A program made the translations under genes and the position numbers. Under the pieces are notes generated by a model. The model was not told the DNA's origin. It worked only from the letters and a program-made list of their open reading frames with translations, and did not search any database. 64,000 nt of DNA from NCBI RefSeq assembly GCF_013378075.1, contig NZ_CP051131.1, forward strand, positions 310,001 to 374,000, written 5' to 3'. Shown here in pieces: positions 5,550 through 62,430 of the stretch (position 1 is its first letter; each line of letters starts with the position of its first letter). This DNA is from Parasphingopyxis algicola (GTDB taxonomy: Bacteria; Pseudomonadota; Alphaproteobacteria; Sphingomonadales; Sphingomonadaceae).

Positions 5550-5586
5550 GGTCCGATATGGGGGGCTCCAAGGGGAGGACGCAAGC

Positions 5587-6447
5587 GTGGCGGACTATAG
5601 CGACGGAGTTTGGTGGTCGAATGACGGGCTGCGCCTGCATTATCGCGCCTATGACGGGCCGGACGACAAGCCGCCGATCCTGTGCCTGCACGGCCTGACC
5701 CGCAATGCGCGGGACTGGGAACCGGTGGCCGACCGGCTGGCCGGCGACTGGCCGCTCCATGTGCTCGAGATGCGCGGGCGCGGCGAAAGCGCCTATGCGA
5801 CCGACCCGATGACCTATGTGCCGCTCACCTATGTCCAGGATGTCGAGGCGTTTCTCACGAGCCTGAACATCAGCCGCTATGTCGCCTTCGGCACCTCGCT
5901 CGGCGGGATCATCACGATGCTGCAGGCGGCGACGAATCCGGAGCGGCTGGCGGGCGTGCTGCTCAACGATATCGGGCCGGTCATCGAGGAAGAGGGAGTC
6001 GAGCGGATCCGCGGCTATGTCGGCAAGGGCGGCACTTTCCCGACCTGGCTGCACGCTGCGCGGACGCTGCGAACCGGCTTTGGCGACGTCTATCCGAAAT
6101 GGGCGCTGGCCGACTGGCTCGCGATGGCCAAACGGCTGTGCAAGGTCCAGCCCTCGGGCCGGATCGGCTATGATTACGACATGCGGATCGCCGAACCGTT
6201 TCGCGTGCCGGGCGGCGAGGCCGGTTTCGACATGTGGACGGCCTTTGCCGGCCTGAACGGCGTGCCCACGGCGCTGGTGCGCGGCGGCCATTCGGAAATC
6301 CTGTCGGAAGCGACCGCGCAGGAGATGCAGCGGCGCAAGCCCGATCTCGCAATCGCGACCGTGCCCGATGTCGGCCATGCGCCCGTGCTCAACGAGCCCG
6401 AAGCGGAAGCCGCGATCGATGCACTGCTGGAGCGCGTGCGGGCGTGA
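5587..6447 (+). CDS. Alpha/beta hydrolase
   Basis: A 286-residue alpha/beta-fold hydrolase. The oxyanion region L-C-L-H-G-L-T-R-N, the nucleophile elbow G-T-S-L-G-G and a C-terminal D-V-G-H catalytic His are visible. The GTG at 5587 is chosen because a strong ribosome-binding site (AGGGGAGGA, 5571-5579) sits 7 bases upstream; the in-frame ATG at 5548 would overlap the selO start and lacks such a site. Substrate unknown. Its stop overlaps the start of the glycosyltransferase gene in a GTGA junction, so the two are co-translated. Confidence 0.85.
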   Translation: MADYSDGVWWSNDGLRLHYRAYDGPDDKPPILCLHGLTRNARDWEPVADRLAGDWPLHVLEMRGRGESAYATDPMTYVPLTYVQDVEAFLTSLNISRYVAFGTSLGGIITMLQAATNPERLAGVLLNDIGPVIEEEGVERIRGYVGKGGTFPTWLHAARTLRTGFGDVYPKWALADWLAMAKRLCKVQPSGRIGYDYDMRIAEPFRVPGGEAGFDMWTAFAGLNGVPTALVRGGHSEILSEATAQEMQRRKPDLAIATVPDVGHAPVLNEPEAEAAIDALLERVRA

Positions 6448-7580
6448 GCGAACCGGCCCGGATCCTCCATCTCCATTCGACATTTTCGCTGGGCGGGAAA
6501 GAGGCCCGGGCTGTCCGCCTGATGAACGCCTTTGGCGGCCGCGCGCGGCACACGATACTGAGCGCGATGCCCGATGAGCTGGGCGCGCGCGAGGCCATCG
6601 ACGCGTCCGTCGTCGCGGATTTTCCCGCCGACGCGCCGTCGCTGGCGGGCAAGCCTGGCCTGGGCCGGTACCGGGCGCTGGCCGACTATATGCGCCGGTT
6701 CGATCTCGTGCTCAGCTACAATTGGGGCGCGATGGACGGGGTGATGGCCCATCGACTGTTCGGAGCGGGCTTGCCGCCGATCATCCATCATGAAGACGGG
6801 TTCAATGCCGACGAGGCGGATCGCCTGAAAACGAAGCGATCGGTTTTCCGGCGGCTGGCCTTTCCCACTCTCTACAAGCTTGTCGTGCCGTCCGATCGGC
6901 TCCGCGCCATCGCCCGTTCCGTGTGGAAACAACCCGAAGATCGCGTGCAGCAGATCGCCAATGGTATTCCGGTCGAGCGATACGCCGCTCCGCCCGAGGC
7001 CGATGCCATTCCTGGTCTCACGCGGCGGCTCGATGAGATCATCGTCGGAACGATCGCCGGTTTGCGCGCGGTGAAGGACCTGCCGCGGCTGGTGCGCGCG
7101 GTTGCGGCGCTGCCGGAAAATGTCCGGCTCGTGATCGTGGGCGAGGGGCCCGAGCGCGCTGCGATCGAGGCGGAGGCCGCGCGTTGCGGTATCGCCGAGC
7201 GGGTATTGCTGGCCGGCTTTCTCGACCGGCCCTGGCGCTATGTCGGCAATTTCGACATTTTCGCGCTGTCTTCGCGCAGCGAGCAGTTCCCGATTTCGGT
7301 CGTCGAAGCGATGGCGTCTGGTCTGCCGGTCGCATCGCCCGCGGTCGGTGATGTCGCCACTATGGTCTCGGACCAGAACAAACCGCTCATCGGGTCCGGC
7401 GATGGCGATCTGCGGGCCGCTCTCGAACGGCTGGTGACGGACGCCGCGAACCGCGATTCGATCGGCGCGGCGAACCGCGAAAAAGCGCGGGCCGAATATG
7501 GCGAAGGCCGCATGATTGGGGCTTATGCCGCGCTTTATGGCGAAGCGCTCGGAAATCGCCGGTTGCTGACGGGTGAGTAA
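6444..7580 (+). CDS. Glycosyltransferase, GT4 family
   Basis: A 378-residue GT-B fold glycosyltransferase. The N-terminal half starts with H-L-H-S-T-F-S-L-G-G-K-E (donor/acceptor-domain glycine loop) and the C-terminal half carries V-G-E-G-P-E-R and the E-X7-E signature S-E-Q-F-P-I-S-V-V-E-A, which binds the nucleotide sugar. The start is the GTG at 6444 overlapping the hydrolase stop (GTGA); the open frame extends further upstream but only inside the hydrolase gene. No other polysaccharide genes are nearby, so the sugar and acceptor cannot be inferred. Confidence 0.85.
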   Translation: MSEPARILHLHSTFSLGGKEARAVRLMNAFGGRARHTILSAMPDELGAREAIDASVVADFPADAPSLAGKPGLGRYRALADYMRRFDLVLSYNWGAMDGVMAHRLFGAGLPPIIHHEDGFNADEADRLKTKRSVFRRLAFPTLYKLVVPSDRLRAIARSVWKQPEDRVQQIANGIPVERYAAPPEADAIPGLTRRLDEIIVGTIAGLRAVKDLPRLVRAVAALPENVRLVIVGEGPERAAIEAEAARCGIAERVLLAGFLDRPWRYVGNFDIFALSSRSEQFPISVVEAMASGLPVASPAVGDVATMVSDQNKPLIGSGDGDLRAALERLVTDAANRDSIGAANREKARAEYGEGRMIGAYAALYGEALGNRRLLTGE

Positions 7581-47791: not shown

Positions 47792-47949
47792 ACATAACCC
47801 TAGTTCCATGCATAGTCATTCTGTGCTGTAAAGTGCATTAAAGCTGGATATTTGGACGATATCGATTTCGGCCCGTTTCAGCCCATCGCTTCAAATCCCA
47901 CACATTATGTGGTAACAAATGTGGGATCGAAATCGCGGGAACAAAGCCC

Positions 47950-49119
47950 ATGTCCCTGACTGCATTGAAGGTGAAGACCGCGCCGCCCGGCCGTCACGGC
48001 GATGGCCGGGGACTTTATCTCGTGGTCAAGGACAGCGGCACCCGGTCCTGGGTGCTGCGTATACAGCATCGGGGCCGGCGCCGCGATCTGGGTCTCGGGC
48101 CCTTTCCCGATGTCTCGCTTGCAGAGGCGCGGATTGGGGCGATGGAGTTGCGCAAACAGGTGCGCGCCGGTCTCGATCCGGTGGCTGAGCGCCGCAGAGG
48201 CAATGCGGTTATTCCAAGCTTCGAGGCGGCGGCCCGGGACTGTTATGATGCACTGAAAGAGGGTTGGAAGAACCAGCGCCATGCGTCCTGGATATCCAGC
48301 CTGGAAAACCATGTCTTTCCCGCGATCGGAACACTGCCGGTCGAGGAAGTGGACAGCGCTGTCGTGCGCGATGTGCTGGAGCCGATCTGGCTGACCATTC
48401 CCGATACCGCGCGGCGGATATTGCAGCGGATCGGCGCGGTGCTCGACTTTGCCCATATCCGCGGCTGGCTGCCGAACGAAGTATCGCTACGCTCGGTCCG
48501 CAAGGGTCTACCGCGCCAGACAGCGACGACCAACCATCTGGCGGCGATGCACTATAATGAAGTACCGGCCTTTATGGCGAAGCTTACAGACTTGCCGCCG
48601 ACCGTCGGCCGCGATGCTCTACGGTTGACGATCTTGACGGCCGTGCGATCGAACGAGACGCGCTTGGCAACCTGGCCCGAGTTCGATCTGCGCAAGGCGC
48701 TGTGGACCATCCCCGGTGCGCGGATGAAGATGAACGAGCCGCATATCGTGCCGCTGTCGCGGCCAGCGATCGTCCTGCTCAGGCGAGTGAAGAGGGAGCG
48801 CAGCGGCAATAGCGATCTGGTCTTCTCGGTATCGAGCGACAAGCCGATCAGCGATATGACGATGATCAAGGTGTTGCGCGACATGGATATCGAACAGGTG
48901 ACGGTGCACGGGTTCAGGAGCAGTTTTACCGACTGGGTGGCCGAAGAAACGGATACTCCCAAGGAGGTCGCGGACAAGGCGCTGGCGCACAAGATCCCAA
49001 ACCGGGTCGAGGCGGCCTATCGCCGTACCGACTTTCTGGCCAAGCGGCGCAAGCTGATGACAGCATGGGCGAAATATTGCATGAAGCGAGCAAACGGGAA
49101 AGCGGCGGCTTGTAATTGA
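47950..49119 (+). CDS. Tyrosine-type integrase (DUF4102/P4-like)
   Basis: Site-specific recombinase of a genomic island (389 residues). The N-terminal DUF4102 domain starts L-T-A-L-K-V-K-T-A-P-P-G, with G-L-Y-L-V-V-K. Catalytic residues of the C-terminal domain are seen: Arg in T-A-V-R-S-N-E-T-R (~232), H-G-F-R (~319-322), a His in A-L-A-H-K-I and the Tyr nucleophile in E-A-A-Y-R-R-T-D (~356). The gene appears intact. It marks the left end of the accessory region and has a truncated relative at 33391. Confidence 0.93.
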   Translation: MSLTALKVKTAPPGRHGDGRGLYLVVKDSGTRSWVLRIQHRGRRRDLGLGPFPDVSLAEARIGAMELRKQVRAGLDPVAERRRGNAVIPSFEAAARDCYDALKEGWKNQRHASWISSLENHVFPAIGTLPVEEVDSAVVRDVLEPIWLTIPDTARRILQRIGAVLDFAHIRGWLPNEVSLRSVRKGLPRQTATTNHLAAMHYNEVPAFMAKLTDLPPTVGRDALRLTILTAVRSNETRLATWPEFDLRKALWTIPGARMKMNEPHIVPLSRPAIVLLRRVKRERSGNSDLVFSVSSDKPISDMTMIKVLRDMDIEQVTVHGFRSSFTDWVAEETDTPKEVADKALAHKIPNRVEAAYRRTDFLAKRRKLMTAWAKYCMKRANGKAAACN

Positions 49120-49151
49120 GCCAGATGCCGAAGGCAGCGGGGTGGGGTGAT

Positions 49152-49385
49152 CTATCCCTTCAACTCCGTCTCGACTTCCTCGCAGTGATAGGCGGGCGGA
49201 TCGGCGATCCAGCGGTTGATCTCGGACTCGCGCCAGCCCGAGCAATAGTCGCTGATCTTAACCTGACGTGGGAAGGTGCCGTCCTTCATCTTGCGGTACA
49301 GCGTCGAGCGGCTGAGGCCGGAACGGTCGAGCACGGTCCTGATACGCAGGATTTTATCAGGTTCGGTCATCACAAATTCAATCAT
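49152..49385 (-). CDS. AlpA-family excisionase/regulator
   Basis: A 77-residue (72 from ATG 49370) helix-turn-helix protein: L-R-I-R-T-V-L-D-R-S-G-L-S-R-S-T-L-Y-R (in part) and F-P-R-Q-V-K-I with W-R-E-S-E-I-N-R-W-I, the standard AlpA pattern. AlpA-like proteins control integrase expression and excision of P4-type islands. It is convergent with the integrase, 32 bp apart. No good ribosome-binding site decides between the two starts. Confidence 0.85.
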   Translation of the reverse strand: MIEFVMTEPDKILRIRTVLDRSGLSRSTLYRKMKDGTFPRQVKISDYCSGWRESEINRWIADPPAYHCEEVETELKG

Positions 49386-49642
49386 GGAGTGATAAGGGAT
49401 GGCATAGCTTCCTATGCGCAAAGCCCCGTAGCAAGAGGGATCGGCGGCGATTCGGCGTAAAGGCGGTAAACACTGGTGAACGGCGGGTATTTGCGGCGAA
49501 CGGCGACCCCATCGCAAGTCCAGTCATGACAAAGCCAAACTTTTTTGTGGCATAATCCATGGCATTTCGGAGCATGTGCTGAAAATCATCGTATTACATC
49601 AGCACGTTAAGTCGCGAGTTCGAATGCTGCGCTATCCACGCT

Positions 49643-50104
49643 TTACGAGATATAGTCCAAAGGCAGTTCGGTCGTTGCCTTAAGTTTTTCCATCGAAAAG
49701 CTTGCAGAAACGTCGTACATAGCAACATTCCGGATCATCCGCCTGTAGATTGTATCGTAGCCTTTCATATCAGGCGCAACTACCTTTAGCACATAGTCGA
49801 CATCACCTGATGTGCGATGCACTTCCACTATCTCCGGAATGGACGCGACAGCCGCATTGAAGGTCTCCAGCCAATTGTCGCTGTGGTCGCTCGTTCGGAT
49901 CAGAACAAAGCCAGTTAGACCCAAACTGATTGCTTCTTGATCGAGAAGTGCGACCCGGCGGTCGATAACGCCATCGTCTTCAAGTTTTCGAATTCGTCGC
50001 CATACTGGAGTTGGTGAGATCCCTGCTCGTTCGGAGAGTTCCGCCACCGGAAGGCTCGCATCTTGCTGCAAGATACGCAGTATCTTTTTGTCGATGCTGT
50101 CCAA
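49643..50104 (-). CDS. Lrp/AsnC family transcriptional regulator
   Basis: A 153-residue regulator: N-terminal winged helix (D-K-K-I-L-R-I-L-Q-Q-D; S-P-T-P-V-W-R-R-I-R-K-L-E) and C-terminal RAM ligand domain (G-D-V-D-Y-V-L-K-V-V). Translation starts at TTG 50104: a perfect AGGAGG (50116-50111) lies 6 bases upstream, while the nearby ATG at 50109 is in another frame and too close. It is divergent from the DUF6356-yeiH-aminotransferase-E1 operon. MdeR-like Lrp regulators control methionine catabolic genes in Pseudomonas, so the same kind of role is inferred. Confidence 0.9.
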   Translation of the reverse strand: MDSIDKKILRILQQDASLPVAELSERAGISPTPVWRRIRKLEDDGVIDRRVALLDQEAISLGLTGFVLIRTSDHSDNWLETFNAAVASIPEIVEVHRTSGDVDYVLKVVAPDMKGYDTIYRRMIRNVAMYDVSASFSMEKLKATTELPLDYIS

Positions 50105-50125
50105 AACATTCCTCCTAAGAGCGAT

Positions 50126-50157
50126 AATCTAAAAAATTTATCTACTATAAATAGATT
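50126..50157. promoter_or_regulatory. AT-rich palindromic operator candidate for the Lrp-type regulator
   Basis: Nested inverted repeats in the divergent region: outer AATCTA (50126-50131)/TAGATT (50152-50157), inner TTTAT (50137-50141)/ATAAA (50147-50151). On the minus strand it contains ATAGTAGATAAA, which recurs with one change at 57759-57770. It is strikingly AT-rich in a GC-rich setting, as Lrp sites tend to be. Confidence 0.55.
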
Positions 50158-50235
50158 CCGGCCGCAACTTTGGTGACATTCTCTCAGAGGTCAACGCTAT
50201 CCCTCCGCGTAGAAGTTCATAGGGAGGTCGAAACG

Positions 50236-50469
50236 ATGAAACTGTTCACCAATCACCCAAACTCGGTCGGCGAAAGCTATCTGGAGCATATGGGCATGGC
50301 GTTCGGGTTCGGATTTCGCCTCATATGGTCAGGCATCGCCTGTATCCTTCACGGACTATTTCCATTCCTGTTCGTCAGCACTGGCAGCAAGACAGTAGGC
50401 GACCTTCATGACCGGATGATAGCCAATCGTAATCGCAGGTCGTCGGATCAAGCGGTTCCGGCTGAGTAG
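50236..50469 (+). CDS. DUF6356 family small membrane protein
   Basis: A 77-residue protein (M-K-L-F-T-N-H-P-N-S-V-G-E-S-Y) with one hydrophobic stretch of ~25 residues in the middle (I-A-C-I-L-H-G-L-F-P-F-L-F-V). Sphingomonads carry many relatives of this unknown-function family. GGGAGG lies 8 bases before ATG 50236; the upstream open frame has no such signal. It ends 6 bp before the yeiH-type gene and is the first gene of the operon. Confidence 0.8.
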   Translation: MKLFTNHPNSVGESYLEHMGMAFGFGFRLIWSGIACILHGLFPFLFVSTGSKTVGDLHDRMIANRNRRSSDQAVPAE

Positions 50470-50475
50470 AGGGTT

Positions 50476-51522
50476 GTGAACACGGCCGTCCTGCGTCGCG
50501 GCGCCTCGGTCTACGCCGCCAGCATTCTGTCCGCGGTGCGAGACTATGGCGCTGGCACAGCGGTATCAGTGGCACTCGCTTTGACTGCGCTCGCAATCAA
50601 CTCCTGGCTGGGCGGTCCGGCGATGATTCATGCGCTCTTACTTGGCTTCGTCCTGCGCTGGGCTGTATCGGGAAGACGGTTCGATGCAGGAATCGACTTT
50701 TCTGCCAAGACACTTCTGCGCCTCGGTGTCGGATTGCTCGGCGCTGGTATTTCATTTCAGCAAGTTTTGGCGCTTGGCCCGCAGGTCGTAGCGTTGGTGG
50801 CGGGTGGGGTGGTCTTTACCATCATTCTCGGACTCATCTGCGCACGCTTGCTCGGCTTGGGTCGTGATCTCGGTTTGTTGTTGGGTGGGGCGGTAGCGAT
50901 TTGCGGTGCGTCCGCGGCGCTCGCGATTGCGTCGGTATTACCCAAAAGTGAGCGAAGCGATGCCAATACGCTCCTGGCAGTGGTCGGCGTTACCGCGCTT
51001 AGCACAATCGCGATGGTTCTCTATCCGCTCGCTTCGATCGCATTGGTAATGTCGGCCAAAGCGAGCGGTGTGTTTTTCGGCGCTACGATCCATGACGTCG
51101 CGCAGGTGGTGGGAGCCGGCTATATGATCTCCGACCACACCGGAGAAACCGCAACTATCGTTAAACTTCTTCGGGTTGGCTGCCTCGTCCCGGTCGTGGC
51201 GGCAATCAGCCTTTGGACCGGCAATTCGCACAAAGACAGAACTCGCAGCATCGGTCACCTATTCCCATGGTTCTTAGGGCTTTTTATCTTATTGTCGGCG
51301 GTCGCCAGTCTGCAATTGGTGCCAAACGCCATCATGGATATGGTCAGTTCTGCGGCCAAAATTCTCCTGTTGATCGCGATTGCGGCCCTAGGTTTAAAAA
51401 CGTCGCCCAGCGGACTTGCCAAAGTCGGGATTAAGCCGGTGCTGGTGCTTGCCGTGGCAACGCTCGGCTTGGCGCTGCTGGTTTTGACTTTGCTTTTCTT
51501 CCTTCCGGAGCATTTTGCATGA
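50476..51522 (+). CDS. YeiH-type putative sulfate exporter family protein
   Basis: A 348-residue polytopic membrane protein (about ten helices) of the UPF0324/YeiH family, annotated as putative sulfate or sulfonate-related exporters. Signature stretches are L-G-V-G-L-L-G-A-G-I-S-F, G-G-A-V-A-I-C-G-A-S-A-A-L-A-I and F-F-G-A-T-I-H-D-V-A-Q-V-V-G-A-G. GTG start at 50476. It overlaps the aminotransferase gene by ATGA. In this company it could export sulfite or another sulfur product of amino acid breakdown. Confidence 0.82.
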   Translation: MNTAVLRRGASVYAASILSAVRDYGAGTAVSVALALTALAINSWLGGPAMIHALLLGFVLRWAVSGRRFDAGIDFSAKTLLRLGVGLLGAGISFQQVLALGPQVVALVAGGVVFTIILGLICARLLGLGRDLGLLLGGAVAICGASAALAIASVLPKSERSDANTLLAVVGVTALSTIAMVLYPLASIALVMSAKASGVFFGATIHDVAQVVGAGYMISDHTGETATIVKLLRVGCLVPVVAAISLWTGNSHKDRTRSIGHLFPWFLGLFILLSAVASLQLVPNAIMDMVSSAAKILLLIAIAALGLKTSPSGLAKVGIKPVLVLAVATLGLALLVLTLLFFLPEHFA

Positions 51523-52697
51523 GAAGCCTTTTCATGCAGTTGCACCTCCCGCCACCGGATGCGCTGCACGGCATAACCATGGCGCATGCCGCCGATCCGC
51601 GCTTGCACAAAATGGATCTGGGCGTTGGCGTATATCGCAACGAAGAGGGGTATTCGCCGGCTATGGAGGCGGTTAAGAATGCTGAGCGGATACTTGCCAA
51701 CTCGGATGGCTCTAAGGCGTATTTGCCGACGCGAGGGCATCCCGAATTTCTCGAGGGCATGGAGGGATTGCTTTTTCCAAGTGACCCTATCGACTCAATC
51801 GTTTCGATCCAAACTGTGGGCGGGACCGGCGGTATATATCTCGCTCTAGAACTGGTCCGTAGAGCAAATCTCGATGTCACAGTTCATATCGGCACCCCCA
51901 GTTGGCCCAATCATGCCGGTATATGCCGGCATTTGGGCGTTCCCGTCCGCGAGTTCGCGCACTGTGATCCGGACAGCGGCGTTCCGTCTTCCAAGGGGTA
52001 TCTGCGAAGCCTTGAGGGCGCGAAGCCGGGCGACCTTCTTATCCTGCATGGACCTTGTCATAACCCAACAGGACGCGATCTCGCCTTTGATGACGCCGTT
52101 TTTTTGGTTCGCGAGGCATATGATCGCGGTGTGACCTGTTTAATCGATGCCGCCTACTACGGTCTTGGCAACCGGCTAGAAGACGATCTCGAATATCTGA
52201 AGGCTATGCTGGTTGCCGCACCCGCTACGATGCTGATCATGTCGGGCTCAAAGGCGTTCGGATTGTACCGGGACCGGATCGGCATCTTGTTCGTCAATTG
52301 CATGTACGCAAGAGGCGAAGACATTGTCGCCGTGCTTGGCAACATTGCCAGGACAACCTACTCGGTTCCCGCTGCCCATGGGGCGCAGGTCATAGGTACG
52401 ATTCTGGGCGATCCCGACCTGAAATCGCATTGGATCGGAGAGCTGGATGCGATGCGTGATCGGATCAATGGTTTGCGCGATCAAATTCATCAATTAGCAG
52501 ATGGCGCACCGATTTTCAGTTCCCTACAGGCTGAAAAAGGCATTTTTTCTCTTCTTCCGCTTTCATCCGATACGGTCACCAAACTTGCCGATACGTATGG
52601 AATTTACATTGCCGGCTCGGGTCGAATCAACTTAGCGGGGCTAAGCCGTCAAACAGTGCCGTTGTTTGTTGAGGCGATACGCTATGCTAATGGGTAA
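51519..52697 (+). CDS. Class I aspartate/aromatic aminotransferase
   Basis: PLP-dependent aminotransferase (392 residues) of the AspC/TyrB type. It has D-L-G-V-G-V-Y-R-N-E-E-G (typical N-terminal hallmark), H-G-P-C-H-N-P-T-G with the PLP-phosphate Asn, and the PLP Lys in M-S-G-S-K-A-F-G-L-Y (~244). The substrate could be cysteine sulfinate, methionine, or an aromatic amino acid; AspC-type enzymes transaminate cysteine sulfinate to an unstable product that releases sulfite. Overlaps the YeiH gene; 84 bp before the E1 gene. Confidence 0.87.
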   Translation: MRSLFMQLHLPPPDALHGITMAHAADPRLHKMDLGVGVYRNEEGYSPAMEAVKNAERILANSDGSKAYLPTRGHPEFLEGMEGLLFPSDPIDSIVSIQTVGGTGGIYLALELVRRANLDVTVHIGTPSWPNHAGICRHLGVPVREFAHCDPDSGVPSSKGYLRSLEGAKPGDLLILHGPCHNPTGRDLAFDDAVFLVREAYDRGVTCLIDAAYYGLGNRLEDDLEYLKAMLVAAPATMLIMSGSKAFGLYRDRIGILFVNCMYARGEDIVAVLGNIARTTYSVPAAHGAQVIGTILGDPDLKSHWIGELDAMRDRINGLRDQIHQLADGAPIFSSLQAEKGIFSLLPLSSDTVTKLADTYGIYIAGSGRINLAGLSRQTVPLFVEAIRYANG

Positions 52698-52781
52698 CAG
52701 TATTATCCTGGTCAATCGCCCTACTCGCAGTCATCCGCGCGCTCAGGACAGGTACAATGTATATTTGCAGAAGTTTGGGCC

Positions 52782-55145
52782 ATGAGCACACATCAGTCGC
52801 GGGCCGGGACGAACATACTCGATCCAAAACCTTCTGAAATCGTACATCTTGAATATATCGAGCGCCGCCTTCGCTGGCTCAGTTCGTGGATGGTCCACGA
52901 TGCCAACAATTTGCGGGAGAAGCGCGACGGGCTTAAGGTGGGCGGCCATCAGGCGAGTTGTTCGTCGATAACGGCCATCATGGCAGCGCTATATTTCCAT
53001 GCTCTGCGGCCGCAGGACAAGGTTGCGGTCAAGCCGCATGCAGGCCCTGTTCTTCACGCGATCCATTACCTGATGGGCGAACAGACGCGCGATCGAATGG
53101 AACGGTTTCGCGGTCTCGGCGGGGTGCAGAGCTACCCCTCGCGCACCAAGGATGCGATCCCGGTCGACTTCTCGACCGGTTCGGTCGGGCTGGGGGTGGC
53201 GATCACGGCCTTTTCCTCTTTGGTTCAGGACTATCTCATTGCCCATGGCCGGCTTGCGGAGGAGCAGGCCGGGCGGATGATCGCGTTGATGGGCGATGCC
53301 GAGCTCGACGAAGGCAATATCTATGAATGTCTGATCGAAGCGTACAAGCATGATATCCGCAATTGCTGGTGGATTGTCGATTACAACCGCCAGTCGCTCG
53401 ACGCGACGACCGCGGACCGGATGTTCCGCCGCTTCGACGATATCTTCGAGACCTGTGGCTGGCGGGTCGTCACACTCAAATTTGGGAAGCTCCAGCGCGA
53501 GGCCTTTGACAAGCCGGGAGGTAAGGCGCTGGAGGACTGGATCGAGAACTGCCCCAACGCGGACTTTGCTGCACTCACTTATCTCGGTGGCGCGGCCTGG
53601 CGTGAACGGCTGAAGCAGGACATTGGCGGCAAGCGTGGGGTCAAAGCCCTGTTGGCCAGGTATGACGACGAGCAGTTAGCGGCGCTTATGACGAATCTCG
53701 GCGGTCATTGCATCGAGACTCTGGTCGAGGCGTTCGACGGGATGGACGACGAGCGCCCGACGCTGATGATCGCCTATACCGTCAAGGGCTACGGCCTGCC
53801 GCTCGCCGGGCACAAGGACAACCATTCCGGCATGATGAACACCGCACAGATCGAGAGGCTGCGCGATGCGATGGACATTGCCGAGGGGGCCGAGTGGGAC
53901 AAATGGGGCGGGGTGGGCGACAATGCCGTCGCCTCGCTCGAAGCGTTTGTTGCGGACAGCCCTATTGCGCGCAAGCAGCGCGAGGCCGCAGCGCCAACCG
54001 TGCCGGTGCCGGAAAGGCTGTCGACTGGTGCGAAGGCCGACATCTCGACGCAGGCCGCCTTCGGCGCGATCCTACACGACCTCGCCAAGTCGGACGATCC
54101 GCTGGCCGACCGCATTGTGACCACCGCGCCCGACGTTACGCAGACCACCAATCTCGGCGCCTTCGTGAACCAGCGCGGCCTGTTTCGGCGGCAGGAACTG
54201 GCCGACGTGTTCCAGACGGAGAGCATCCCTTCCGCGCAGAAATGGACCGGCGGCGGAGCGGGGCAGCATATCGAACTGGGCATCGCTGAGCACAACTTCT
54301 TCTTGGTACTGGCCGCTCTCGGGTTGTCGGCCGAACATTTCGGCACCCGGCTCATTCCCATCGGCACGGTATACGACCCGTTCATCGCCCGCGGGCTCGA
54401 TGCGCTCAATTACGGCTGCTACCAGGACTCGCGCTTCCTGCTAGTCGGCACGCCCTCAGGCATCACGCTGGCCGGCGAAGGCGGCGCACACCAGTCGATC
54501 AACACGCCGCTTATAGGCATGGGGCAACCCAACCTTGAGAGCTTCGAGCCGGCTTATGCGGACGAACTCGCGCTGACGATGCGCTGGGCCTTCGACCATA
54601 TGCAGCAGCTCGATGGCAGTTCGGTTTATCTCCGGCTGACCACGCGCGCAATTCCGCAGCTCGAACGCAAGGATGCAGCTTGGGAAGCTGATGCGCTCGA
54701 AGGTGCCTATTGGCTACGCGAGCCTTCGGAAGGGGCGGAAGCGGCTATCGCTTATTGCGGCGCGGTCGCGCCCGAAGCCCTTGCTGCGTCGGAAGTGCTG
54801 GCGGACGACATACCTGGGCTCGGCCTTCTCGCCGTTACGTCGCCCGACCGGCTGCACCGGGCCTGGTCGGCGCGGCGGGCCGCGCGCTGGACTGGCGGGC
54901 AGGCTTGGCCGAGCCATATCGAACGTCTGCTGGCCCCGCTCGCGCCCGATGCCGGTATCGTGACGGTGCTCGACGGATCGCCCGCCGCGCTGTCGTGGAT
55001 CGGCGGCGTGAGAGGACACCGCATCAGCCCGCTGGGAACCGACCGGTTCGGGCAGACCGGCGACTTACCCGACCTTTATCGCACGTATCGGCTCAACAGA
55101 GAGGCGATCTTTGATGCCATGGCCGAACTGTTCATCGAGAGCTGA
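52782..55145 (+). CDS. Homodimeric 2-oxoacid dehydrogenase E1 (AceE/MdeB-like)
   Basis: Thiamine-diphosphate enzyme (787 residues) of the transketolase fold. The ThDP motif starts G-D-A-E-L-D-E-G at ~170 and ends with the Asn of V-D-Y-N-R-Q at ~202. The catalytic-Glu region of the pyrimidine domain is E-L-G-I-A-E-H-N (~501). It resembles AceE (pyruvate dehydrogenase E1) but is shorter; MdeB, the 2-oxobutyrate dehydrogenase E1 of the Pseudomonas methionine gamma-lyase operon, is the closest match in context. An E2 gene begins 3 bp after it. No E3 is nearby. Confidence 0.85.
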   Translation: MSTHQSRAGTNILDPKPSEIVHLEYIERRLRWLSSWMVHDANNLREKRDGLKVGGHQASCSSITAIMAALYFHALRPQDKVAVKPHAGPVLHAIHYLMGEQTRDRMERFRGLGGVQSYPSRTKDAIPVDFSTGSVGLGVAITAFSSLVQDYLIAHGRLAEEQAGRMIALMGDAELDEGNIYECLIEAYKHDIRNCWWIVDYNRQSLDATTADRMFRRFDDIFETCGWRVVTLKFGKLQREAFDKPGGKALEDWIENCPNADFAALTYLGGAAWRERLKQDIGGKRGVKALLARYDDEQLAALMTNLGGHCIETLVEAFDGMDDERPTLMIAYTVKGYGLPLAGHKDNHSGMMNTAQIERLRDAMDIAEGAEWDKWGGVGDNAVASLEAFVADSPIARKQREAAAPTVPVPERLSTGAKADISTQAAFGAILHDLAKSDDPLADRIVTTAPDVTQTTNLGAFVNQRGLFRRQELADVFQTESIPSAQKWTGGGAGQHIELGIAEHNFFLVLAALGLSAEHFGTRLIPIGTVYDPFIARGLDALNYGCYQDSRFLLVGTPSGITLAGEGGAHQSINTPLIGMGQPNLESFEPAYADELALTMRWAFDHMQQLDGSSVYLRLTTRAIPQLERKDAAWEADALEGAYWLREPSEGAEAAIAYCGAVAPEALAASEVLADDIPGLGLLAVTSPDRLHRAWSARRAARWTGGQAWPSHIERLLAPLAPDAGIVTVLDGSPAALSWIGGVRGHRISPLGTDRFGQTGDLPDLYRTYRLNREAIFDAMAELFIES

Positions 55146-55148
55146 TCC

Positions 55149-56464
55149 ATGTCGAGATCGATCAAGATGCCCGCTTTGTCGCCGACGATGGAGGAGGCGA
55201 AGCTGGCCCGGTGGCTGGTGCAGGAGGGTGATGCCGTGAGCGCGGGCGACATCATGGCCGAGATAGAGACCGACAAGGCGACGATGGAGTTCGAGGCTGT
55301 GGACGAGGGCACGATCTCGAAGATCAAGATGGTCGAGGGCACTGAGAGCGTGAAGGTCGGCACTGTGATCGCGATTCTCGCCAAGGAAGGTGAGAATTTG
55401 AGCGAGGCGGCCGCGGGTGCGAGTGATGATAGCGGGAACGAAAAACCCACCGAGTCCGGGCCGACAGAAGAGCGAGTCTCCGCTCAAACGGAGGCCTCAG
55501 GCGAGGGTGCGAAACCGGCTGAGACCCCGGTGTCAGCGGTGGATCAGGCCAAGACTTTCGCTTCTACGCCCTCCAGCGATCGGATTTCTGCTTCTCCACT
55601 AGCGGAGAGAATTGCCGAACAGAAAGGTCTCGATCTTTCACAGGTTAAGGGTAGCGGCCCGAACGGACGGATCGTGAAGGCCGATTTCGAGGATGCCAAG
55701 CCCGGTGCCGCTCCGGTGAAAGGCGAAGTTGCGGCTCTCGCGCCTCCCGCGCATGCTCCGCAGGGCGGAGAACCCGACGCGCCTTACGAAGCGCAGAAAC
55801 TGAACAATGTCCGTAAGGTCATCGCGCGTCGCCTGACCGAGGCGAAGCAGACCATTCCGCATATCTACCTCACTGTCGATGTGCGGCTCGATGCGTTGCT
55901 CGACCTCAAGAAGCAGCTCAACGCCTCGCTCGAGATTGATGGCGTCAAGCTGTCGGTTAACGATTTGCTGATCAAGGCGCTCGCTCGCTGCAGCGTGTGC
56001 CTAAGTGCAATGTCAGCTTTCAGGGCGATGAGCTGTTCCAGTACAGGCGCGAGGATATTTCGGTCGCAGTCGCCGCGTCCTCGGGCCTGATCACTCCGAT
56101 CATCCGCGATGCGGGCCGCCAGGGCCTCGCGCAGATCAGCGCCGAGATGAAGGAACTGGCGAGCAAAGCCAGGGACGGCAAGCTGCAACCGCACGAATAT
56201 CAGGGCGGCACCGCTAGCCTGTCCAATCTCGGCATGTTCGGCACCAAGCAGTTCGATGCGGTGATCAACCCGCCGCAAAGCATGATCTTGGCGGTCGGTG
56301 CGGGCAAGCAGCGTCCGCATGTCGTCGACGGCATGCTTCAGGTCGCCACTATGATGAACGCCACCGGCAGCTTCGACCACCGCGCCATCGACGGCGCCGA
56401 CGGAGCGGAGCTAATGCAGGCGTTCCAGCAGCTGTGCGAGAACCCGATGGGGCTGATGGGCTAG
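55149..56464 (+). pseudogene. Dihydrolipoamide acyltransferase E2, broken by a frameshift
   Basis: E2 of a 2-oxoacid dehydrogenase complex. One frame (from ATG 55149) encodes the lipoyl domain (E-I-E-T-D-K-A-T-M-E-F with the lipoyl Lys), a Pro/Ala linker, the E1/E3-binding domain (S-P-L-A-E-R-I-A-E-Q) and the start of the catalytic domain up to L-L-I-K-A-L-A-R, then runs out of homology and stops at 56090. The catalytic remainder, from V-P-K-C-N-V-S-F through the H-R-A-I-D-G-A-D-G-A active-site motif to 56464, is in another frame. The shift is near 55990-56000 and fits loss of 1 or 4 bases. It may be a real mutation or a sequencing error. Confidence 0.85.
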
Positions 56465-56467
56465 AGT

Positions 56468-57649
56468 CTAGAGCGCTCCAAAAGCTATCTCCAGCTGCTC
56501 TATGAGATCGCCAGAGTCCTCTACGCCGCAGGAATAACGAAGCAACGTTTCCGGTATGCCGAGCGCCGCGCGTTGCTCAGGCGTGCACTCGACATGACTC
56601 GTAACGGATGGCGGGCCGACCAGTGTGTTGACTGAGCCAAGGCTGGCGGCTCGGTGGACGTAGTGCAGCTTGCTTAAAAAGACCTTCAGCTCTTCGAATC
56701 CGCCATCAACTGAAAAGCTCAACATCCCTCCAAAGCCGCGCATTTGCGATTTAGCAACGTCGTGTTTGTCGTGGCTTTCCAATCCAGGGTAAAAGACTTG
56801 GCTAACCTTCGGGTGCTTATCGAGAAAGCGCGCAATCTCCATTGCCGTTGCGTTCTGTTTTTTTACTCGCAGATCCAGCGTCTTCATCCCACGAAGGAGA
56901 AGATATGCCGAAAAAGCCGAAAGAACGGCGCCGCATATCTCGCGATACTCGTAGACCGCCTGCACCAACTCAGCCTTTCCGATAAGAACGCCGCCCATCG
57001 CGTCATCATGTCCGCCGAGATATTTGGTCGCGGAATGTACGACGAGGTCGGCTCCGAGTGCCAAGGGATTCTGATTGATTGGGGTTGCAAAGGTGTTGTC
57101 TACTACGCAGATTGCGCCTTGCGCTTTTGCTGCTTTGATGGCGCGCGCCAGATCGATAATCTTGAGGGTCGGGTTAGTTGGCGTTTCCAAATAAACGATC
57201 TTGCAACCCTTGCTAATCGCGTCATCGATGGCGTCGCCATCATTGGTCTCAATCAGATCAACGTCGATCCCCATATGCGGCAAGTGGTCGAGAAAAATAC
57301 GGCTGGTTCCGCCATAGCTATCCTTGATTGATACGACCCGGTCGCCTGGGCGCAAATGCGTGAATAGCGTGTTGGAGATTGCCGCCATTCCGCTGGCGAA
57401 AGAAATTGCATTTTCGCCCGCTTCCAAAGCGCGGCATTTCTCCTCGAATACTGCCATCGTCGGGTTGGTGTTGCGACTGTAAATATGTCCATCCGCTTGG
57501 CCGAGCGCGACGGCGAGCCATGTATCGAGATCGTCGTACGCGAACGGCGCGCTCTGCACGATCGGAACTTGTGCGGCTCCGAACGCCAAAGGGTCTTCCT
57601 CGCCTGCCCAGACGGCGATCGTGGACTTATCCTGATCTGCGATTGTCAT
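56468..57649 (-). CDS. Cys/Met metabolism PLP enzyme (gamma-lyase/trans-sulfuration family)
   Basis: PLP-dependent enzyme (393 residues) of the cystathionine gamma-synthase/lyase and methionine gamma-lyase family. Seen are Y-S-R-N-T-N-P-T (Y57, R59 contacting PLP phosphate of the partner subunit), Y112 in S-Y-G-G-T, the PLP Lys at ~209 in H-S-A-T-K-Y-L-G-G-H, and the substrate-binding R-Y-S-C-G-V-E-D. The position of the methionine gamma-lyase Cys (after Y-G) is Gly here, so cystathionine or homocysteine may be favoured over methionine. It converges on the E2 gene, 3 bp apart. Confidence 0.88.
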   Translation of the reverse strand: MTIADQDKSTIAVWAGEEDPLAFGAAQVPIVQSAPFAYDDLDTWLAVALGQADGHIYSRNTNPTMAVFEEKCRALEAGENAISFASGMAAISNTLFTHLRPGDRVVSIKDSYGGTSRIFLDHLPHMGIDVDLIETNDGDAIDDAISKGCKIVYLETPTNPTLKIIDLARAIKAAKAQGAICVVDNTFATPINQNPLALGADLVVHSATKYLGGHDDAMGGVLIGKAELVQAVYEYREICGAVLSAFSAYLLLRGMKTLDLRVKKQNATAMEIARFLDKHPKVSQVFYPGLESHDKHDVAKSQMRGFGGMLSFSVDGGFEELKVFLSKLHYVHRAASLGSVNTLVGPPSVTSHVECTPEQRAALGIPETLLRYSCGVEDSGDLIEQLEIAFGAL

Positions 57650-57758
57650 GAGGCTTTTTGCTCCTTTTCACGTTTCACCACTCGGCCTTCGAACGATGGT
57701 TCGGCCAATCTCCTTTGGCCTTAATCACTTGAGTCTTGCCACCATCCGCTAAAAATTG

Positions 57759-57770
57759 ATAGTATATAAA
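57759..57770. promoter_or_regulatory. Second copy of the AT-rich operator-like motif
   Basis: ATAGTATATAAA matches 11 of 12 bases of the minus-strand motif ATAGTAGATAAA at 50137-50148. It lies in the divergent gap between the gamma-lyase gene (start 57649) and the porin gene (start 57805), suggesting that the same Lrp-type regulator controls both. Statistical support is modest. Confidence 0.4.
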
Positions 57771-57804
57771 TAAAATTAGATAGCAGAGTGGGGAAAGTGG
57801 GAGC

Positions 57805-58986
57805 GTGAAAAGCGGGCACAAATCGAAGAGCCGTGTATTGCGCCGGTTACTGGGGCAGGTGGCCTTGTTTGCCGTAGCAGTGCCTGGAGTTGCCGTTGCA
57901 CAAGATGATTCCGATGTGGCTACGGTAACGCTTGGTTACATCGGCGACTTCTGGACGGTGCTCGACGGTGCTGAAGATAACGGCTTGGTATATCTCGAAA
58001 ACGCGGATGCTGCGATCGAGTTGAATCTCGAACAAGTAATGGGATGGGATGGGAGTACGCTCTTCGTTCGGGGACTCTACAATAATTCAAACTCGATCAG
58101 CCAGATCGCAGGTGACGCGCAAGTCATTTCCAATATCGAGACTGGCGTCAACGCCATACGACTTTATGAGGCATGGGTAGAACAACGAATCGGCGATCGC
58201 GTATCGGTGAAGCTGGGTCTTTATGACCTCAACTCGGAATTCGATGTGCTGGATAGCGCAGGTTTGTTTATCAATTCGGCTCATGGCATTGGTTCGGTGA
58301 TAGGCCTCTCCGGCGAAAATGGTCCCTCTATCTTCCCGGTTACCAGCCTTGCAGCACGTATATCGTTCGAGCCTGCGGACGGTTGGGCAATCAGGGGAGC
58401 GGTGCTCGACGGAGTTCCTGGTGATCCCGACAATCCGGACTCTACAGTGATCGAACTGGAAGATGGTGACGGAGCACTGATCGTGGCCGAAGTGGAAGCG
58501 CCGTTGCCGAGGGGTAAGGTGCTTCTCGGGTACTGGCGCTATACTGCGCAATTCGAGACGTTCGACGGACTGACAGGCACTGGTAATGATGGCTGGTATG
58601 TGCGTGCCGAGAGCCAGCTATACCGCGATCCTGCGAATGCCGGACGTGTTCTAACCGGATTTGGACGGCTTGGATGGGGCGATGGAAGATACAATGCTTT
58701 CCACCGTTTTGCCGGGGCCGGATTGACGTTATCCAGTCCATTTGTCGGACGGCCCGAAGACGAGTTTGGCGTCGCGATCGCTGCAGCTTTCCCATCGGAC
58801 GATTTCGAGAGCGTCACTGAGAATAATTCGACTGAGGTGAATGTGGAGCTGACCTATTCTGCGCAAGTGACTGATTGGCTCAGGATCCAGCCCGATATTC
58901 AATGGATATTTAACCCATCGGCCGATCCAGCTGCGGACGATGTCGTCGCCGCAGGCCTGCGTTTCGAACTGGGGTGGGAGTTCTAG
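57805..58986 (+). CDS. Outer-membrane porin, OprB/carbohydrate-porin type
   Basis: A 393-residue beta-barrel protein with a signal peptide (L-F-A-V-A-V-P-G-V-A-V-A-Q, cleavage near residue 33) and a C-terminal Phe. The OprB-like pattern is seen in L-Y-E-A-W-V-E-Q-R-I-G-D and V-K-L-G-L-Y-D-L-N-S-E-F, and F-I-N-S-A-H-G-I-G. GTG start with GGGAG close upstream. Divergent from the gamma-lyase gene; probably imports a substrate of the cluster, not necessarily a sugar. Confidence 0.83.
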   Translation: MKSGHKSKSRVLRRLLGQVALFAVAVPGVAVAQDDSDVATVTLGYIGDFWTVLDGAEDNGLVYLENADAAIELNLEQVMGWDGSTLFVRGLYNNSNSISQIAGDAQVISNIETGVNAIRLYEAWVEQRIGDRVSVKLGLYDLNSEFDVLDSAGLFINSAHGIGSVIGLSGENGPSIFPVTSLAARISFEPADGWAIRGAVLDGVPGDPDNPDSTVIELEDGDGALIVAEVEAPLPRGKVLLGYWRYTAQFETFDGLTGTGNDGWYVRAESQLYRDPANAGRVLTGFGRLGWGDGRYNAFHRFAGAGLTLSSPFVGRPEDEFGVAIAAAFPSDDFESVTENNSTEVNVELTYSAQVTDWLRIQPDIQWIFNPSADPAADDVVAAGLRFELGWEF

Positions 58987-59046
58987 GACTCTGTGAATTG
59001 ATCGGCTGGGAAAGATTTGGACTTTGCAGCCAGAACTGTCGGCCGA

Positions 59047-59937
59047 CTAGCCGATCGGCTGTGCCCAGTCGACATCGGCAAAGGTGCGCTGGCATGCATT
59101 CCGTAACCAACGATTTGCGCCATCGCTCCTCATTCGCTCGTGCGCGTAAGAGAAAATCTCGATCTCAGGAACTCCGATCGGAACATCGGCTAGTCGCAAC
59201 CCCAGCCATCGGGCATAGATCAGCGCCACTGGCAGCGGTACTATGGCGGGAATGCCCGCTGCCCGAACGGCGTGGGGCACAGCCAGAAAATCGGGCATCC
59301 GCAGCGCGACCGCGCTGTCGCCGAACGCTTGCCGGATACCAGCCGCCACGACCTCGTGCCCCGTGCCCTTGCCCTCAACGACGACAAACCGGGGTGCAGG
59401 GCCGAGCGAGTAATCTTGCGGTGCGAGCAGAACATAGTTCGTCGTAAAGAGTAGCTGGCGGATTAGCGGACCATCGCTTCTCTGAATGAAGCCGATAGTC
59501 AAATCGATATTCCCTCGGCCAAGGACTCCGGCCAGATCGCTGCGCGGGATCGGACGGGTGACGATTGATAGATTGGCGCGATCGCGAAAATTCTGGGCAA
59601 CTATGCGAGGAAGGACGACGGATTCGGCAATTCCCGACATCGCTATGGTGAAGCGTCGCTTGTCCCGTTCAGGATCGAACGCCCGTGCTTGCGTGCTGGC
59701 GGCGTCTAATAGCACTAGCGCGCGTGCGACTGAAAGATGGTATTCCTGTGCGAAGGGCGTCGGTTCGACGCCGTTGCCGCTCCGCACGAAAAGGGCGTCG
59801 CCCAATTCGAGGCGGAGTTTTGCAATCGCATTGCTCAACGCAGGTTGCGTCAGGCCGAGTTCCTCAGCAGCGCGCGAAACCTTGCGTTCGCGCATCACCG
59901 CATCGAAAGCGCGCAGGAGGTTGAGGTTTTTTATCAT
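59047..59937 (-). CDS. LysR family regulator (NahR/NagR-like)
   Basis: A 296-residue regulator: winged helix L-N-L-L-R-A-F-D-A-V with L-T-Q-P-A-L-S-N-A-I-A-K-L, and a C-terminal inducer domain. The start sequence N-L-N-L-L and V-S-R-A-A-E-E-L-G-L-T-Q-P-A-L-S-N (in part) resemble NahR, the salicylate-responsive activator. The ATG at 59937 gives the standard LysR length; an upstream ATG at 59970 is less likely. It faces the hydrolase gene across a short promoter region and probably activates the aromatic cluster to its right. Confidence 0.86.
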   Translation of the reverse strand: MIKNLNLLRAFDAVMRERKVSRAAEELGLTQPALSNAIAKLRLELGDALFVRSGNGVEPTPFAQEYHLSVARALVLLDAASTQARAFDPERDKRRFTIAMSGIAESVVLPRIVAQNFRDRANLSIVTRPIPRSDLAGVLGRGNIDLTIGFIQRSDGPLIRQLLFTTNYVLLAPQDYSLGPAPRFVVVEGKGTGHEVVAAGIRQAFGDSAVALRMPDFLAVPHAVRAAGIPAIVPLPVALIYARWLGLRLADVPIGVPEIEIFSYAHERMRSDGANRWLRNACQRTFADVDWAQPIG

Positions 59938-59948
59938 CACAAAAAATA

Positions 59949-59963
59949 ATGAATGATATTCAT
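59949..59963. promoter_or_regulatory. LysR-type palindrome between regulator and hydrolase genes
   Basis: ATGAAT-GAT-ATTCAT, a perfect inverted repeat containing the T-N11-A core (T59950, A59962). It lies ~12 bp before the lysR start and ~46 bp before the hydrolase start, a typical place for LysR autoregulation and activation. Confidence 0.6.
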
Positions 59964-60008
59964 ACATCACAATAGATGATGCTGTATCCCGCGTCTATGG
60001 TCATTCAT

Positions 60009-61371: not shown

Positions 61372-62430
61372 CTAGAGCGAAGCCTCGCCACCGACTGTTT
61401 CCTCGCGCCATAATCCGAGCTTGCGCTGGGCAGCTCTGTCTGAAAAATCGAACAGGACCAAGTCGGATTCGGCTGCAATGCCGCGCTCCGTCCATCCGGG
61501 CACGGCCACGATATCGCGCGGGCCGATATCAAATTGCCGCTCCCCGACATGAATGGAACCGTGCCCCTCGACGCCAACGAAGACTTGACTTTCAGTCGTT
61601 CGATAAGACGCTGTTGCAAAACCGCAGCGTAACAACCGTACTCCAGCTGATATCGTGCGCAACACGTCCCCGCCGGTTTGTGGGTCGATGAATTCCATTG
61701 CGAAGCCTTGTCGGGGATCGCAGTCCGAATCTCGGGAAAACGCTTCCAGTGCTGCCCGCCAGCGATCGTAGGGATAATGGAATAGGCTGCGGTAATCTCG
61801 CCCCGCGTGTTCGGCCTGGAGTAAGGGACGCATGTTTTCACCAAATATGGCGTGGCTCGTCCCGGCGGGCTGTGCATTGGGATAGGCGGGCCCGTCGGCA
61901 AAAGACTCGGCGAAGCTGGCGCCGAATGCGGTTACGATCGGGATATCGAGGCCGTCGAGCCAGATAACGGTCTCGTTGCCCTCGTTGCCATGATCATGCC
62001 ATCGGCCAGCAGGTGTCAGCACAAGGTCGAACGGATTCATATGCACTTTCTCGCCATCGACCGCAGTATGGGCGCCTCCACCTTCGAGCACGAAACGCAG
62101 CGCGCTTTGGCTATGCCTATGGCAAGGGGCTGTCTCTCCGGGAAGCAGGAGTTGCAAGCCGGCATAAAGCATTTCAGTAATGCGGGCCTCGCCAGGGTAT
62201 GCCGGATTCTCAAGCATCAGCACGCGTCGCTCCGCTTCGGCTGCCGATATGACCTCTCCTGAGCGATCGAGCAGAGGCAGCATGTCCTCGAAGTGCCAAG
62301 CGTGGGGCTGAGAGCCGAGATTGGGCTCCGAGCTGACAAGGCTGCTCAGAACCGTCCATAGTGGCGCGGCCGCTGATTCTCGAAGGTCAGCATAAAGCTG
62401 TTCCCGGTCAATGGTTCGGTTCTCGGACAT
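61372..62430 (-). CDS. Gentisate 1,2-dioxygenase
   Basis: Ring-cleaving Fe(II) dioxygenase (352 residues) with two cupin domains. The N-terminal iron-binding motif is A-P-C-H-R-H-S-Q-S-A-L-R-F and the downstream W-H-D-H-G-N-E; the second cupin (~270-330) carries G-H-G-S-I-H-V-G. It converts gentisate to maleylpyruvate. Its ATG follows the hydroxylase beta-subunit stop by one base, so it is in an operon with the hydroxylase, and it converges on the small cupin gene. Confidence 0.9.
   Translation of the reverse strand: MSENRTIDREQLYADLRESAAAPLWTVLSSLVSSEPNLGSQPHAWHFEDMLPLLDRSGEVISAAEAERRVLMLENPAYPGEARITEMLYAGLQLLLPGETAPCHRHSQSALRFVLEGGGAHTAVDGEKVHMNPFDLVLTPAGRWHDHGNEGNETVIWLDGLDIPIVTAFGASFAESFADGPAYPNAQPAGTSHAIFGENMRPLLQAEHAGRDYRSLFHYPYDRWRAALEAFSRDSDCDPRQGFAMEFIDPQTGGDVLRTISAGVRLLRCGFATASYRTTESQVFVGVEGHGSIHVGERQFDIGPRDIVAVPGWTERGIAAESDLVLFDFSDRAAQRKLGLWREETVGGEASL

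Follow-up and report, generated by a model that had tools for sequence, protein, structure and literature searches.

Do the genes around a single Lrp-type regulator in Parasphingopyxis algicola form one pathway for the breakdown of a sulfur amino acid, or are they a mosaic of parts with separate histories? The question is raised by positions 49643-58986 of a 64-kb window (C1:310001-374000; coordinates below are those of the window unless a locus is named) of the 3.67-Mb, single-contig genome, where an initial annotation had seen a coherent system in which methionine, homocysteine or cysteine sulfinate is broken down to a 2-oxoacid, the carbon captured as acyl-CoA and the sulfur product exported. 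Our comparison shows that the gene set, which borders a catabolic island, is a mosaic and not a conserved unit, and that it holds one real conserved module, in which the Lrp gene is divergent from genes for a DUF6356 protein, a YeiH-type permease and an aminotransferase. The full set was found at none of 77 other loci of its 2-oxoacid dehydrogenase E1 and at none of the best 80 of 585 loci of its Cys/Met-metabolism enzyme; the initial annotation had named separate conservation of the genes as evidence that would refute its reading, and this is what the comparison shows, except for the portion linking Lrp and DUF6356 to YeiH or the aminotransferase, which recurs. Throughout, G numbers denote genomes and L numbers loci or stretches in the comparison sets, L351 and L355 lying in the host genome to the right of the window, and gene lists at compared loci come from simple open reading frame (ORF) calls.

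The Lrp/AsnC regulator (49643-50104, minus strand; PF01037 and PF13404) faces a plus-strand series of genes with the order DUF6356-YeiH-aminotransferase-E1-E2. Its first gene (50236-50469) encodes a small hydrophobic DUF6356 protein of 77 amino acids, with 106.4 bits against a gathering cut-off of 24.4 for PF19883. Six bp further on lies the YeiH-type permease gene (50476-51522), overlapping by 4 bp that of an AspC/TyrB-like class I aminotransferase (51519-52697, PF00155); 84 bases then precede an AceE/MdeB-like E1 (52782-55145), followed after 3 bases by an E2 in two pieces (55149-56090 and 55997-56464, both on the plus strand). A Cys/Met-metabolism enzyme dependent on pyridoxal 5'-phosphate (PLP; 56468-57649, minus strand) is convergent with this series and divergent from an OprB-family porin (57805-58986, plus strand; PF04966, 202.4 bits). 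The genes named in the initial annotation are present; the DUF6356 gene had been overlooked and the E2 is not one gene. All genes except the E2 have intact reading frames. Their G+C content is 0.50 for Lrp, 0.53-0.58 for DUF6356, YeiH, the aminotransferase, the PLP enzyme and the porin, 0.63 for E1 and 0.62 for E2.

The conserved module emerges from the neighbourhoods of its individual genes. In G014, an Lrp with 67% identity to that of the window stands opposite DUF6356 and the closest relative of the aminotransferase (52% identity), a DUF819 permease gene lying downstream of that Lrp; the six E1-adjoining Lrps (out of 32) compared with the window Lrp are 35-41% identical to it. Among 59 other YeiH loci, eight have an Lrp gene within 1.5 kb, divergent from YeiH in six (L120 has it after YeiH in the same orientation, and in L296 the two converge), and all eight also have DUF6356, which occurs at 12 of the 59 overall. 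This count leaves out 6 of the 65 other YeiH matches, one of which (G030 C1) has Lrp beside YeiH. DUF6356 itself is present in 61 of 148 relatives, and the 30 DUF6356 loci read, the window included, contain Lrp in 13 cases, YeiH in 11, both in 7 and neither in 13. Since the host genome has only three Lrp genes, chance linkage with DUF6356-YeiH appears, on informal judgement, unlikely. An AspC-type aminotransferase stands at the module in the window, in G014 and in G040, where it lies 4.6 kb from YeiH, and in G136 the order is Lrp/DUF6356-YeiH-D-amino-acid transaminase (344.4 bits, cut-off 320). No LysR gene was found beside YeiH at the 59 loci with a single distant query, a weak test. We found no description of the Lrp/DUF6356-YeiH plus aminotransferase module in the literature searched, and a full-text search for DUF6356 by name returned a single paper, which lists it in a gene-cluster table.

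What such a module might export is suggested by the permease, which scores 224 bits, over the cut-off, with the wider family PF03601. In Salmonella, sulfite resistance depends chiefly on YeiH (PMC12880088), which makes a sulfur exporter a reasonable reading of the window permease; the YeiH of Hyphomicrobium is likewise regarded as a likely sulfite exporter (PMC12423496). The YeiE-YeiH system of Salmonella (PMC12880088) resembles the window in pairing a YeiH-family permease with an adjacent regulator, but the regulator there is a LysR-type sulfite sensor and here an Lrp, and DUF6356 and the aminotransferase are additional in the window. By eye, YeiH neighbours in G012 and G047 (L219 8933-9802, L217 8119-9231) resemble a dioxygenase of the TauD type and a flavin-dependent oxidoreductase, and YeiH genes other than that of the window may have a part in the use of sulfonates.

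The aminotransferase has the class I fold (PF00155) and scores 355.3 bits with the aromatic amino acid transaminase model NF006719, below its cut-off of 377. In alignments with solved aspartate/aromatic aminotransferases, it retains the residues corresponding to the lysine that holds PLP and to the arginines that bind substrate. AspC-type aminotransferases can convert cysteine sulfinate to pyruvate and sulfite. Close relatives are rare: at E<=1e-95 the host genome is the only one among 385 in the class sample, and at E<=1e-88 there are 4 of 397 in the family sample, the host genome included. Matches in plasmids (149 records) all fall below 60% identity, the 20 listed at no more than 40.4%.

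The E1 is, as annotated, AceE/MdeB-like. It exceeds the PF17831 cut-off and scores far below that of the homodimeric pyruvate dehydrogenase model TIGR00759 (184.5 against 859.9 bits). At E<=1e-60, E1 relatives occur in 46 of the 148 relatives (host genome included) and in none of nine congeners; at E<=1e-120 they occur in 33 of 319 genomes of the phylum sample, none outside the class. The host genome has a second E1, 69% identical. The mde operon of Pseudomonas putida encodes MdeR, MdeA and MdeB. Of the 77 other E1 loci, scanned over 9 kb where the stretch allowed (seven had less than 3 kb on one side, and L079, with a broken E1, was excluded beforehand), 32 have Lrp and 8 a methionine gamma-lyase-like gene no more than 2.5 kb away, and 6 show the order Lrp/lyase-E1 (L073, L241, L243, L244, L247 and L252). 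The L073 lyase passes both methionine gamma-lyase cut-offs, and the E1 beside it is 56% identical to that of the window. From this gene context of its relatives, the window E1 is probably of the MdeB-like kind, MdeB itself being outside the comparison. The likeness to the mde operon and the Lrp/methionine gamma-lyase-E1 loci thus consists of an Lrp-type regulator and a same-family E1 (53-57% identity to the loci compared); the window differs in having no methionine gamma-lyase, in having YeiH, DUF6356 and the aminotransferase, and in an Lrp of another kind. Within 9 kb of E1, none of the 77 loci carries the window PLP enzyme, YeiH, AspC or porin. In L073 (G134), a gene at 5325-6767 resembles, by eye, an E3-like dihydrolipoamide dehydrogenase and lies beside the Lrp/methionine gamma-lyase-E1 genes.

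The E2, which had been considered dedicated to this E1, is broken. Of the 437 positions in model TIGR01349, its two out-of-frame pieces cover 2-275 and 280-436, the first containing the lipoyl and E3-binding domains (PF00364, PF02817) and the start of the acyltransferase domain, the second the remainder of that domain with the DHRAIDG motif. The five E2 genes found within 100 bases of E1 elsewhere (5 of 77 loci) are all single open frames with both motifs. The break, at 55985-55997, lies away from any long single-base run and may be genuine or a sequencing error. A near-DNA plasmid search with positions 47900-60000 returned 11 records, with matches within E1 and E2. In one compared case, pLA3 of Novosphingobium pentaromativorans, the E1 is 78% identical and the E2 directly follows, but there the E2 is intact and the pair has its own Lrp, and neither YeiH nor AspC lies in the sequence examined around it. 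The E1-E2 pair has an origin other than that of the Lrp module.

The PLP enzyme is also of separate ancestry. It passes the cut-off of the cystathionine gamma-synthase family NF006097 (PRK08249; 628.4 against 600 bits) and of no further model among its 25 best NCBIfam models, which include those for methionine gamma-lyase (TIGR01328, 399.8 against 549.7; NF005695, 374.1 against 666). A cysteine following Tyr-Gly in the active-site loop (YGCT) is a trait of methionine gamma-lyases. The window enzyme and eight aligned relatives have YGGT at this place, and seven of the eight lyases near E1 have YGCT. The candidate role of methionine gamma-lyase was therefore rejected on model scores, YGGT and separate gene context; canavanine gamma-lyase was also considered as kin, by description only (PMC10018355). 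Taken together, the NF006097 score, YGGT and the relatives' neighbourhoods leave methionine cleavage unsupported, so that of the gamma-lyase assignment only the Cys/Met PLP enzyme family stands.

Close relatives of the enzyme (E<=1e-110) are patchy within the order (11 of 148), and members of the family occur in many phyla; the host genome also encodes MetZ-like, MetY-like and MetC-like proteins and an NF005455 enzyme. Neighbourhoods were compared at the best 80 of the 585 loci, many on short contigs. There, no E1, E2, YeiH or AspC gene accompanies the relatives of the PLP enzyme, and recurrent neighbours are DoeA-like (24), homoserine dehydrogenase-like (18), M20 hydrolase, aldehyde dehydrogenase and, by eye, PucR-like (17 each), EutC-like (10) and EutB-like (9) genes. 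In the congener G005, a 78% identical copy has a EutB-like neighbour (400 bits against a cut-off of 413), and an 80% identical relative occurs in an Erythrobacter metagenome-assembled genome, where it is preceded by a gene (L131 7817-9949) for a 710-amino-acid protein with S51-peptidase-like and asparaginase_2 parts. The gene order pucR-eutBCD-atf-abgB-thrA-adh of Bacillales is reported as a putative ectoine cluster (PMC13188858); L138 has a comparable order, in which a relative of the window enzyme from NF006097 takes the 'atf' position. The window gene set differs from these clusters, and equating the published atf with the L138 gene is an inference from gene order. The gene in this position, both at L138 (9998-11206) and at similar loci of Bacillota, resembles an NF006097 gamma-lyase-family enzyme and not an ordinary aminotransferase; gamma-elimination or hydrolysis to homoserine would fit the adjacent homoserine dehydrogenase. 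For the window enzyme, the sequence relatives give no more than a lead towards activity with a four-carbon amino acid.

At the left edge of the island stand a phage-type integrase (47950-49119, plus strand; PF13356, PF22022 and PF00589 over cut-off) and an AlpA-like protein (49152-49517, minus strand; PF05930, 61.9 bits, cut-off 21). No tRNA gene was found at the island edges and no direct repeat of at least 16 bases between 345-362 kb of the contig and the part beyond 372 kb. Further right, about 40-48 kb from the integrase, ParB-like (L355 5606-7375) and TraA-relaxase-like (L355 9651-12548) genes, both recognized by eye, suggest an integrated plasmid or conjugative element.

A 19-base palindromic motif recurs at the module and at genes to its right. 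A position weight matrix scan with leave-one-out scoring gave seven sites within about 34 kb and none elsewhere in the 120 kb scanned: one in the Lrp-DUF6356 gap (50133-50151, minus strand), one between the PLP enzyme and the porin (57756-57774, plus strand) and five within 26 kb downstream (L351, near 1484, 2873, 6555, 17020 and 19687). By the ORF lists six sites are clearly intergenic, and the seventh precedes a dehydrogenase-like gene with which the examined sequence ends. Their leave-one-out scores, 20.3-30.6, all exceed the null maximum of 17.6, which was obtained from five simulated sequences only. An earlier 13-base pattern was derived from both window sites and so matches them exactly by construction; its sole further one-mismatch site in the genome lies 7.7 kb from the second site, and a reversed-pattern control also yielded one match. 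The seven sites probably mark a local regulon. As a candidate Lrp operator the motif was not upheld: of 15 other Lrp/DUF6356 regions, only that of G115, in an 81% A+T stretch, exceeds the null maximum. The site at the porin is common to downstream gentisate-type genes, and in that direction lie, both below cut-off, genes resembling those for gentisate dioxygenase (61372-62430; 430.1 bits, cut-off 442.1) and an aromatic-acid transporter. DoeA-like (L351 7931-9109; 321 bits, cut-off 613) and DoeB-like (L351 10572-11573; 234 bits, cut-off 402.7) genes, together with those for a class III aminotransferase, an amidase and an aldehyde dehydrogenase, may form a variant ectoine-like or acyl-amino-acid breakdown cluster.

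How, then, might the locus work? Tentatively, and with less than even confidence, we favour an amino-acid-sensing module for export and transamination to which E1-E2, the PLP enzyme and the porin have been added within a horizontally acquired catabolic island. The Lrp-type regulator would sense an amino acid and control the operon that it faces; the aminotransferase would convert an acidic sulfur amino acid, at best guess cysteine sulfinate, to its 2-oxoacid, which would fall apart into pyruvate and sulfite; and YeiH, helped by DUF6356, would export the sulfite. In more general terms, the module would deal with an amino acid that yields a toxic product on degradation. With the adjacent E2 broken, E1 could take the 2-oxoacid to acyl-CoA by working with another E2. 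Given the sulfite link of YeiH and the chemistry of AspC beside an amino-acid-sensing regulator, cysteine sulfinate breakdown with sulfite export is the most economical interpretation, so that this part of the earlier proposal is kept and methionine cleavage is dropped. Several findings weigh against it. The permease scores 131.5 bits with TIGR00698 (YeiH family putative sulfate exporter), below the cut-off of 232.6. At 51 of the 59 other YeiH loci, Lrp is absent from the surrounding 1.5 kb on either side; of the five best relatives, G146 and G134 have a divergent Lrp, and G012, G047 and G100 (the last on a short contig) have none. Conversely, 6 of the 13 Lrp-bearing DUF6356 loci have no YeiH in the roughly 3-kb stretch, and DUF6356 stands beside Lrp without YeiH in G115, G100 and G094, so the Lrp-DUF6356 pair also exists apart from the exporter, and in G014 the Lrp-DUF6356-aminotransferase genes have no adjoining YeiH. 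Aminotransferases of this type also accept aspartate or aromatic amino acids. Finally, the motif is missing at most other Lrp/DUF6356 regions, and control through it by the window Lrp is therefore not upheld.

Some of the same findings favour a reading without sulfur, in which the export substrate of YeiH/DUF6356 would be an ordinary amino acid or the corresponding 2-oxoacid; Lrp would sense that amino acid, and the aminotransferase would interconvert the two. We consider this somewhat unlikely, though a general amino-acid or 2-oxoacid exporter ranks close behind the cysteine sulfinate/sulfite reading. It would account for the Lrp-type regulator, the D-amino-acid transaminase adjoining YeiH in G136, two genes beside Lrp in G146 that look RidA-like by eye, the low TIGR00698 score and the occurrence of DUF6356 with Lrp and without YeiH in several genomes; the tested YeiH functions found in the literature searched, however, concern sulfite only, and the dioxygenase- and oxidoreductase-like neighbours in G012 and G047 also speak against it. 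Less likely still is that the set has no joint function and consists of partly decayed transfer leftovers beside an integrase, only Lrp-DUF6356-YeiH remaining a unit whose use here is incidental. The broken E2, the integrase and AlpA genes at the edge, the absence of E1 from all nine congeners and the higher G+C of E1 and E2 agree with such decay, but the reading frames of all other genes are intact, the operon is tightly spaced, and the seven intergenic sites of one motif join operon and porin to downstream genes.

An mde-type cluster, cleaving methionine or homocysteine, passing 2-oxobutyrate to propionyl-CoA and exporting the sulfur product, is by far the least probable. Its appeal is that the E1 family is also found beside true methionine gamma-lyases. 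In the window, however, the PLP enzyme is an NF006097 member with YGGT, convergent with the operon and unlinked to E1 at the other loci of either enzyme. In addition, the E2 is interrupted, and the Lrp belongs to another kind than those linked to E1. With no methionine gamma-lyase in the cluster, the mde trio of Lrp, lyase and E1 is incomplete, and the cluster-wide methionine pathway proposed initially is not supported.

The module favoured here would have its clearest consequence for DUF6356. It is possible, though rather unlikely in our estimation, that DUF6356 is the small membrane partner of an Lrp-controlled YeiH clade that, with a dedicated aminotransferase, carries out an amino-acid-sensed, sulfite-exporting breakdown of an acidic sulfur amino acid; if true, this would give DUF6356 its first role and introduce a new control logic, in which an amino-acid sensor takes the place of YeiE, the sensor for sulfite. 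The linkage with Lrp and YeiH gives DUF6356 a testable role, and a transporter family recently tied to sulfite resistance becomes linked to amino-acid sensing. At the same time, a gene set resembling the mde-type methionine pathway turns out to be a mosaic, and the widespread NF006097 enzymes, often located in clusters for the breakdown of four-carbon amino acids, should not be read as methionine lyases.

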